Source: Proteinivorax hydrogeniformans
Lineage (GTDB): Bacteria > Bacillota > Proteinivoracia > Proteinivoracales > Proteinivoracaceae
Direction: 5' to 3'
Assembly: GCF_040515995.1 (NCBI RefSeq)
Contig: NZ_CP159485.1
Location: forward strand, 2,108,001-2,172,000
DNA length: 64,000 nt
Shown in pieces: positions 882 through 54,927 of the stretch. Both the position numbers and the translations under genes were made by a program. The notes under the pieces are model-generated. The model was not told where the DNA came from. It did not search any database and saw only the letters and a list, made by a program, of their open reading frames with translations. Positions within the stretch are counted from its first letter, which is position 1, and each line of letters begins with the position of its first letter.

Positions 882-1113
882 AAAAAACGCCCCTTAAAAA
901 AGGGACGATAATTACCGTGGTTCCACCCTAGTTAAAAGATTTACCATCTTTCACTTAGATCGATTGTGTAACGGTTATCAACCGGCACAGGTTTTGGCCT
1001 GCCAGCTCAGGGGCGGTCTTCGCTAACTTTTCTTTTAGGTAGATTTTCAGCCTGGTGATCTACCCTCTCTGAAAAAGTAAGCCAGCTACTTTTCCCTTCT
1101 TAGCTTTTATATT
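882..1113 (-). promoter_or_regulatory. T-box leader of thrS
   Basis: The minus-strand leader contains the T-box sequence AGGGTGGAACCACGGT (914-929), which pairs with the tRNA acceptor end, followed by an intrinsic terminator (882-907). A Stem I-like region lies at about 1000-1105. An ACC triplet followed by a purine at 1015-1017 is a good candidate specifier codon for threonine; that placement is my inference. Uncharged tRNA-Thr should stabilise the antiterminator and allow thrS transcription. Confidence 0.93.
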
Positions 1114-40461: not shown

Positions 40462-41571
40462 TTAATCCTCCTTTAATTCTATCTTTAGCTTCTCCCAGCT
40501 TAATTCAGGAGATACAGTATCGTTAGTTTTAAGTGTTAAAGCTGCACAGGCTGAGGCAATTTTTGCACATTGATCTAAAGGTAACCCTTTATAATAAGCA
40601 GCTATAAAGCCACCTACTAAGCTATCTCCTCCACCTGTCACATCAATTATTTCCTTAGCTTTAGAGGGAATTATTTCGGTATAATCCTTGCTATATAAGA
40701 ACAAACCTTTCTCTCCTAGCTTTAACAATAGGATTTTTACGCCACGATTTAGCAGCATATCTCCTGCTCTTTTGTAGTCTTTTATACCATCTAGCTTAAA
40801 CTGACATATTTCTTCTAACTCTTCTTTATTTGGAGTTAATATATCTATGTAACTAAGCATTTTTTCTACCTTTCTTGCCTTTTCAACCGAAACCGGTTCA
40901 ACTACAAAGGTGCAGTTTAACTTTTGAGCTTGATGGGCTATATACTCTAACGTGTCCTCTCTTAAATTTGTATCACACACTATGACTTTAGCATTTTTTA
41001 ATACCGGCAGGTTAGACTCAATGTATTGAGTGTCTATTACATCTATAATATCCATGTCAGCTAGGCCGATTTGCAAATCGTTTTTGTCATTTAAAAAGGC
41101 CATATAAGTTCCTGAGTTATACTTTGCAGTCTGCAAAACTGGCGTCATATCCACTCCTGCCTCTTTGCTATAATCTAAAATTGCTCGACCATGTTTATCT
41201 CTACCCACAGCGGAAAGTAAACTGGTAGGTGTATTTAAACGCGCTAAGTTTTCTGCGATATTTCTTCCTACTCCTCCTATGGAAGTAAATATCTTACCTA
41301 GGTTAGATGTCTTCATTTCACAACTAACTGATGACGCAACTCCTTTAATATCATAGTTTGCTCCGCCAACTACCACCACTCTTTTTTGTTGATTAAAGAC
41401 ATATCCACGACCTAAAATAAAACCTTTTTTTATTAGGTTTGATATATGGACAGCAACTGCAGATCGTGTAAGCTCCAGTCTGTTGGCTAGTTCATCTTGA
41501 CTTATCATAGGTTCGTTATACAGTATTTTTAATATTTCCTTTTCACGAGCCGTTAGTCTAGCCATTAACAC
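40462..41571 (-). CDS. psuK: Pseudouridine kinase with N-terminal DNA-binding domain
   Basis: PfkB-family sugar kinase giving pseudouridine 5'-phosphate for PsuG. The first 60 residues form a winged helix-turn-helix ([32 protein letters not shown]), the rest a PfkB kinase with [14 protein letters not shown] and the phosphate/base site [12 protein letters not shown] near 316. This fusion occurs in the family and suggests an autoregulator. A perfect inverted repeat lies over the promoter. The ATG at 41571 could also be the ATG two codons later; GGAGGGTG precedes both. Confidence 0.92.
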
Positions 41572-41608: not shown

Positions 41609-41636
41609 TTAATTTGTAGTTTATATTACAAATTAA
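41609..41636 (-). promoter_or_regulatory. Perfect inverted repeat over the psuK promoter
   Basis: TTAATTTGTA (41609-41618) and TACAAATTAA (41627-41636) are perfect 10-bp complements with 8 bases between. The repeat covers the -10 box. It is the probable operator for a dimeric regulator, perhaps PsuK itself. Confidence 0.75.
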
Positions 41637-41646
41637 AATCAGTCAA
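41618..41646 (-). promoter_or_regulatory. Promoter of psuK
   Basis: TTGACT (41641-41646), a 17-bp spacer and TAAACT (41618-41623) on the minus strand. Confidence 0.75.
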
Positions 41647-41659
41647 GAAAAGCATATAC

Positions 41660-41774
41660 AAAAAACCTTCCGCATCAGAGGGGGGGAGATAGCGGAAGGT
41701 TTTTAAAAAAGATATTGGAAGAATTTAATAGTTCATTTTTTGCTATGATTAAAAAATGTTTGTTACTTTTTATG
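41660..41774 (-). ncRNA. Candidate small RNA with C-rich terminator loop
   Basis: A stand-alone transcription unit. A promoter (41781-41809) is followed by about 115 nt without an ORF and ends in a strong terminator (stem CCTTCCGC/GCGGAAGG, 41666-41699, then six U). The 18-base loop contains seven consecutive C flanked by CT (TCTCCCCCCCTCTG), complementary to GGAGG-type ribosome binding sites. A 5' hairpin GTTAC/GTAAC is also present. Not a class that I recognise. Confidence 0.65.
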
Positions 41775-41780
41775 TGTAAC

Positions 41781-41809
41781 AGTATAGTTTATGGCTTTAG
41801 CTAAGTCAA
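41781..41809 (-). promoter_or_regulatory. Promoter of the small RNA candidate
   Basis: TTGACT (41804-41809), a 17-bp spacer and TATACT (41781-41786) on the minus strand. Confidence 0.75.
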
Positions 41810-41896
41810 AAGCAATTTAAGACCGTTTATAGCGATTTAACCTTATTATCTGCCACTTTTGTCACTTTATGTCGATTTTCGTCTTTTTTTCGCCAA

Positions 41897-41948
41897 AACT
41901 AAAAATAGTTCACATCGCACTACTTTCCGATGTGAACTATTTTTAGTT
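41897..41948 (-). terminator. Terminator of the YlbF-family gene
   Basis: Stem AACTAAAAATAGTTCACATCG and complement around a 9-base loop; the proximal arm contains the stop codon. Confidence 0.88.
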
Positions 41949-54691: not shown

Positions 54692-54927
54692 ACTAAAATG
54701 GAAATCGTTGATTAAGAGTAGTAAAGTAGCCTCTTCTCTTAAAGAGAGTCGGTGGTGGTGGAATACCGATAGAGAATGCCGCTTGAATGGACTTATGAGA
54801 GTCAGATTAAAATAATCTGAACGGACCCTCCGTTATCGGGTAAGTGGACTTTGGCTTAGGTCAAAAAGAGTGGTACCGCGGAGTTAACACCTTCGTCTCT
54901 TAATAGAGATTGAGGGTGTTTTTTATA
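54692..54927 (+). promoter_or_regulatory. T-box leader of trpS
   Basis: Contains AGAGTGGTACCGCGG (54867-54881), the T-box element, followed by a terminator (54886-54926; AACACC...GGGTGTT). The specifier is probably TGG at 54788-54790 in GAATGGACT, which reads Trp and fits the downstream gene. Uncharged tRNA-Trp would allow readthrough. Confidence 0.95.

Follow-up and report, generated by a model that had tools for sequence, protein, structure and literature searches.

A candidate small RNA with a C-rich terminator loop in the Proteinivoracaceae and its possible link to sporulation regulators

Between a ylbF-like gene and psuK in a 64,000-nucleotide stretch of the Proteinivorax hydrogeniformans genome (contig NZ_CP159485.1; "the window" below), we found a compact minus-strand unit that is very probably a real, free-standing gene for a small RNA (sRNA). 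It comprises a promoter, about 115 nt of RNA, and an intrinsic terminator whose loop carries seven consecutive C residues and matches Shine-Dalgarno (SD) sites that contain a run of G. Our best overall explanation, held tentatively and with somewhat less than even confidence, is an sRNA that would block SD sites through this loop, with the early sporulation cascade prominent among its targets. Hereafter, we refer to the genome studied as G000, to its congener as G001, and to the genomes from two further genera of the family as G002 to G004.

The anatomy of the unit can be read directly from the DNA, as can its conservation and its complementarity to SD sites. On the minus strand, a −35 hexamer TTGACT (41804..41809) and a −10 hexamer TATACT (41781..41786) are separated by a spacer of 17 and precede the candidate RNA (41660..41774, its start placed from the −10 box and its end from the terminator), within which no open reading frame (ORF) of at least 20 amino acids occurs on that strand. 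The terminator hairpin (41661..41704, minus strand) reads AAAAACCTTCCGC-TATCTCCCCCCCTCTGAT-GCGGAAGGTTTTTT and has a 13-bp outer stem, past which the loop spans 18 nt, or 11 nt (UCCCCCCCUCU) when the inner AUC/GAU pairs form; the C7 run, our proposed seed, lies at 41680..41686 (minus strand), and the predicted fold leaves a UCCC motif unpaired in this loop. The RNA folds with z = −4.43, none of 200 shuffles being equally stable, and its 5′ half holds a weak A/U hairpin (CATTTTTT...AAAAAATG; 41734..41758, minus strand) that is not conserved. All of these main elements, i.e., the promoter, the stretch of about 115 nt that lacks an ORF, the strong terminator, and the C7 loop, had been described in a first-pass annotation of the window, and all are present. 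A terminator scanner missed the hairpin, as it allowed loops of 3 to 8 nt and the unpaired span here is longer. Neither the promoter nor the C-run is exceptional singly: the promoter matches at 10 of 12 positions, a level that is not significant by itself (13 sigma-70-like sites versus 11.9 ± 3.3 expected), and C7 runs are not rare in this genome (57 matches), although none of the 41 other runs of C7 or longer that we inspected in it lies in a hairpin loop. It is the combination of these elements, together with their conservation, that goes beyond chance.

The unit lies downstream of a Com_YlbF gene in all five available genomes of the family, spanning three genera, and each copy has a sigma-A-type promoter, a terminator loop with five to nine C (C9, C5, C6, and C6 in the four relatives), and tandem repeats upstream. 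G001 is 71% identical to G000 across the unit; its promoter hexamers and hairpin are nearly letter-perfect, differing by a single letter in a bulge and by C9 in place of C7, the 5′ half of its RNA has drifted, and the flanks diverge as the unit persists. Across the four relatives the −35 hexamers are TTGACT, TTGACC, TTGAGA, and TTGAGA, with spacers of 17, 18, 17, and 17, and G002 to G004 carry TTGACC-18-TATAAT or TTGAGA-17-TATAAT at the same locus, where the RNA is about 85 nt long, its 5′ hairpin is a different one, and it ends in terminators such as CCTTCCAGAT-TCCCCCCTCGT-ATCTGGAAGG. The inner stem is altered between the two forms (GC-ATC to AGAT), and the C-run is retained in all five genomes. 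Because the inner stem and the 5′ half differ, we take the two forms as homologous on four grounds: their synteny, the outer stem CCTTCC/GGAAGG, the C-run in the loop, and the repeats upstream.

A search of related genomes at the psuK/ylbF locus and with a covariance model, as proposed in the first-pass annotation, located the unit in family genomes only. The ylbF loci examined in genomes outside the family had no similar unit, and a model of the G002 to G004 form, run against 398 genomes of the phylum, returned those three only plus one weak match outside the family (G232:C1:499850-499908, E = 0.0069). Among perfect CCTTCCGC...GCGGAAGG hairpins in 101 genomes, a C-run loop occurred only in the two congeners, and the exact hairpin pattern gave zero matches in collections of genome contigs and viral contigs, which may lack records of this genome or of close ones. 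There was no Rfam match at gathering, including the RsaE/RoxS, FsrA, and CsfG/ylbH families; lax matches to STnc370 and PyrR were rejected as chance-level terminator look-alikes. Judged from these searches, the RNA looks restricted to this family.

The flanks argue for independence. The ylbF-like gene (Com_YlbF family, PF06133; 41947..42309, minus strand), the upstream neighbor in the family, has a separate terminator hairpin directly after its stop codon (41899..41946, minus strand, read from the sequence), and psuK has its own promoter, TTGACT-17-TAAACT, just past the sRNA terminator (41618..41646, minus strand), which the congener keeps as TTGACG-17-TAAACT; the unit thus stands alone. We accordingly rejected a ylbF 3′ end, on this anatomy and on conservation, and also a psuK leader: the first-pass annotation had considered that the hairpin might be only part of psuK mRNA and not conserved in relatives, but relatives do conserve it, and psuK, with its own conserved promoter downstream, would not be transcribed solely through the hairpin. 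The gene concerned (40462..41565, minus strand) encodes a psuK-like kinase (PfkB) with an N-terminal helix-turn-helix (HTH) domain and is the first of psuK-psuG. Neighbors vary across the family. An amidohydrolase-like gene stands in front of the unit in G002, and a ferredoxin gene follows it in G002 to G004 and is absent there in G000 and G001, so that the unit is not tied to any single gene downstream.

These observations bear on three other accounts of the unit. A cis-acting leader or attenuator, whose terminator would interrupt readthrough from the unit's promoter into psuK in this genus or into ferredoxin in the others, appears quite unlikely to us: the terminator does lie 5′ of these genes in the same direction, and the ferredoxin genes of G002 to G004 have, by eye, no strong promoter of their own, yet psuK has its conserved promoter after the terminator, the downstream gene changes between genera (with psuK 15 kb from the unit in G004), no Rfam riboswitch matches, and an antiterminator is not evident in G000. 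Still less probable is an ordinary terminator that would insulate psuK from upstream transcription and in which the C-run would be neutral. Single intrinsic terminators are indeed common and the C-run ranges from 5 to 9, but ylbF already has a terminator, the loop is as well conserved between the congeners as the stem while the flanks are not, and the C-run was kept in all five genomes despite the changed inner stem. That the unit encodes a short peptide is hardly credible, given the lack of any 20-amino-acid ORF on the strand, the unconserved 5′ half, and nothing positive in its favor.

For the sRNA itself, we infer from the sequence that it is probably transcribed, that it may pair with and repress mRNAs, and that it is possibly under the control of Spo0A. 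In the mechanism that we favor, the C-rich loop of the terminator hairpin would be the seed, pairing with G-run SD sites (GAGGGGG or GGGGGAGA) and thereby blocking ribosome binding on the mRNAs of spo0A, spo0F, spoIIAA, spoIIGA, spoIIID, the second sigG, spmB, and also sigA, all of which carry a loop-matching ribosome binding site (RBS). Such a translation block is the usual mode of sRNAs with C-rich loops in low-GC bacteria (PMC4132741). The anti-SD character attributed to the loop in the first-pass annotation holds for G-run sites; its stated complementarity to AGGAGG was wrong. Runs of five or more G, although common, occur in a minority of RBSs (51 of 363 genes in the sampled stretches, ~14%). 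The reading as a base-pairing sRNA is plausible and now has a specific candidate target class, with complementarity as the one line of support for pairing.

Individual matches point to sporulation regulators. The starts of spo0A, which occurs once in each of the five family genomes, carry GAGGGGGA in all five, complementary to the loop over 7 to 8 nt, and in G000 the sigA RBS AAAGGGGGGGAGATAATTG matches the loop over 12 nt. Among sites with GAGGGGGG before a start codon, orthologs recurred for SpoIIID (three genomes), a Spo0F-type receiver (two), an HTH regulator (two), and a fourth pair; SpoIIGA was also among these sites, and sigA emerged from the C7 list. The name Spo0F was assigned from the fold type and from the talC-glpX-rho-rpmE-tdk neighborhood, which is that of B. 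subtilis spo0F. G000 has two SigG-type sigma genes (L262:14158-14931 and L298:11737-12513), of which the one away from spoIIGA-sigE has a G-run RBS and the other AGGAGG. Outside sporulation, a TM2-domain-like gene (L216:216-440; G000 ~1,997,900) has the RBS AGGGGGGGGAGATATATG, a 12-nt match to the loop region. A repeated element, ACCACCATAACAAAATAGGGGGGGAGA...GTCATCCTGAGAGCGCAGCCGAAGGATC, contains GGGGGGGAGA, which is complementary to the loop; the element occurs in L183, L184 (two copies), and L192 (G000 920-956 kb and 1.36 Mb); it has no Rfam match and could be a sponge, if transcribed, or an ordinary dispersed repeat.

We quantified the target bias in two 200-kb stretches of G000 around the genes first matched, together with matching stretches from relatives; the family sample was one congeneric pair and three further genomes, all carrying the sRNA. 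Genes were called by ORF and ortholog, starts were chosen automatically by anti-SD energy, and complementarity was taken as the longest Watson-Crick match of an RBS to the loop of its own genome. In region one, which yielded 73 four-genome ortholog groups (63 run through family searches, ten without annotation), the order was SpoIIID, SigG (second copy), thymidine kinase, Spo0F, and YlbF, so that sporulation genes took ranks 1, 2, and 4, followed by SpoIID at 9 and SpoIIR at 17 (sporulation versus rest, Mann-Whitney p = 4e-4, permutation 5e-5). Anti-SD energy did not differ between sporulation genes and the rest (p = 0.78), and against the 16S anti-SD sequence the candidate sporulation targets had scores lower than the average. 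YlbF is a candidate target of interest because it is part of the Y-complex, through which Spo0A phosphorylation and RNase Y are affected (PMC8945944). In region two (182 G000/G001 pairs), where sporulation genes were named from their N-termini by our own reading before scores were seen and not by family search, the top pairs were SigA, SpmB, SpoIIAA, a major facilitator superfamily (MFS) transporter, SpoIIGA, and Spo0A, and ordinary sites were found at the spoVA genes, sigF, spoIIAB, and the main sigG. When the regions were pooled, 15 pairs reached 7 nt or more in each of the two genomes, and 7 of these were sporulation genes (p = 3e-5 to 3e-4, by the assumed number of sporulation genes), an enrichment that is inflated because the genes through which the regions were chosen are counted in it.

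Upstream of the promoter, the plus strand carries tandem repeats that resemble Spo0A boxes, TGTCACT-TTA-TGTCGAT with a 10-bp step (41860..41876; −67 to −51, counted from where the −35 hexamer starts). Repeats stand at the identical distance in G001 (TGTCATT-TTT-TGTCGAT) and G002 (TGTCGTT-TTA-TGTCGTA); in G003 and G004 they read TGTCGAA-AAA-AATCGAA, in the opposite orientation and further upstream at −95. Spo0A boxes have TGTCGAA as their core (PMC3485338), and this heptamer lies a few tens of bases upstream of the start of each family spo0A gene. Dinucleotide shuffles reached the repeat score in 1, 1, and 0 of 1000 cases for G002, G003, and G004, respectively, and the exact pattern TGTCGN5TGTCG has four sites in the 3.7 Mb of G002, one of them at this unit. 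We regard the repeats as putative Spo0A sites on this suggestive evidence. They could tie transcription of the sRNA to Spo0A~P, such that the sRNA might be a brake removed by Spo0A or part of a feedback loop; the sequence does not tell the sign. Elsewhere, the exact tandem pattern has mixed neighbors, with some sites inside genes. Tandem 0A-like boxes also lie upstream of exopolysaccharide-type genes (G002 3684782-3684796, L118, Wzz-like; G003 C31 2440, L110, polysaccharide epimerase-like), which would fit a control of surface polysaccharide by Spo0A in those genomes.

A number of results weigh against a sporulation-centered sRNA. Genome-wide, GAGGGGGG before a start codon gave 8 to 20 sites per genome, not above the backward control; in region two the sporulation class was not shifted (p = 0.25 for unseen genes, 0.09 with SpoIIGA and Spo0A included); and without the five genes via which the regions were picked (spo0F, spoIIID, spoIIGA, sigA, and spo0A), the pooled p value rises to 0.02 to 0.06. 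A bare C7 loop (p = 0.001) or loops swapped between genomes (p = 0.0007) did nearly as well as each genome's own, so the G-run carries most of the target signal, and we make no claim of loop-target coevolution by lineage. Moreover, spo0F of G003 has no G-run, and the Spo0A-box match is weak in G000, where 131 of 1000 shuffles reached its score (71 of 1000 in G001). A general regulon is a realistic possibility, if one to which we give less than even credence: the sRNA would be real and block SD sites through its C-loop, acting on any G-run RBS or on metabolic and redox genes as RoxS and FsrA do, and the sporulation skew would be a by-product of region choice or of the RBS habits of regulators. 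It would accommodate the G-run share of all sampled genes, the missing class-wide shift in region two, and the other strong matches (tdk, the MFS transporter, a recombinase-like gene, and an ftsQ-like gene). However, it would hardly produce by chance the blind ranks 1, 2, and 4 of 73, together with SpoIIAA and SpmB as new entries at the top of region two. Sporulation control as a main output of the sRNA is our best specific hypothesis, supported to a degree that leaves us slightly on the doubting side.

Known sRNAs offer partial parallels. SpoY of Clostridioides difficile, compared here by its published description, targets G-rich motifs that resemble an RBS and blocks that of spo0A; its overexpression reduces both Spo0A and sporulation, and it is Hfq-associated (PMC10267692); the likeness is the complementarity of our candidate loop to the spo0A RBS in all five genomes. 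SpoY derives from a 5′ untranslated region, whereas the unit here has its own promoter, carries its proposed seed in a terminator loop, is preceded by Spo0A-box-like sites, and has a broader candidate set of sporulation targets. The LhrC family of Listeria monocytogenes likewise pairs a CU-rich terminator loop with SD sequences (PMC4132741), but it is multicopy with three CU-rich sites and has other inducers and targets, against one copy and one C-run loop here. CsfG of Bacillus, in the ylbG-ylbH region, is a C-rich, Hfq-associated sRNA beside ylbF-type genes in a sporulation setting (PMC3574147, PMC8216469); it differs in orientation and control, as our unit is on the same strand as ylbF, has a sigma-A-type promoter, and has no Rfam match. 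RoxS/RsaE and FsrA also block target RBSs with C-rich regions, yet they are redox- or iron-regulated, have metabolic targets, and gave no Rfam match here. In Bacillus subtilis, SR1 inhibits the translation of kinA, a component of the phosphorelay, and so slows sporulation; it differs in that its pairing does not involve the kinA RBS itself and in that it also encodes a peptide (PMC8501984). All five family genomes have hfq.

Other features were seen apart from the unit: the window holds two T-box leaders (898-1110, minus strand, and 54699-54903, plus strand) and a tRNA cluster (2199-2748), and the sampled stretches include genes for lysine fermentation (lysine 2,3- and 5,6-aminomutases with the enzymes downstream of them; L263:8705-17512 and L261:10019-11220), consistent with an amino-acid fermenter.

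In its most ambitious form, which we consider rather improbable, a single Spo0A-wired sRNA would gate several tiers of sporulation post-transcriptionally, from Spo0F and Spo0A through the spoIIA and spoIIG operons to SpoIIID, SigG, and sigA. Sporulation-entry sRNAs are known in few species (SR1, SpoY, and SpoX). If the sporulation link is true, this family would add a further lineage that uses such a strategy, its single loop fitting many sporulation regulators and the sRNA possibly being under Spo0A control, and the result is a small, directly testable set of candidate targets.
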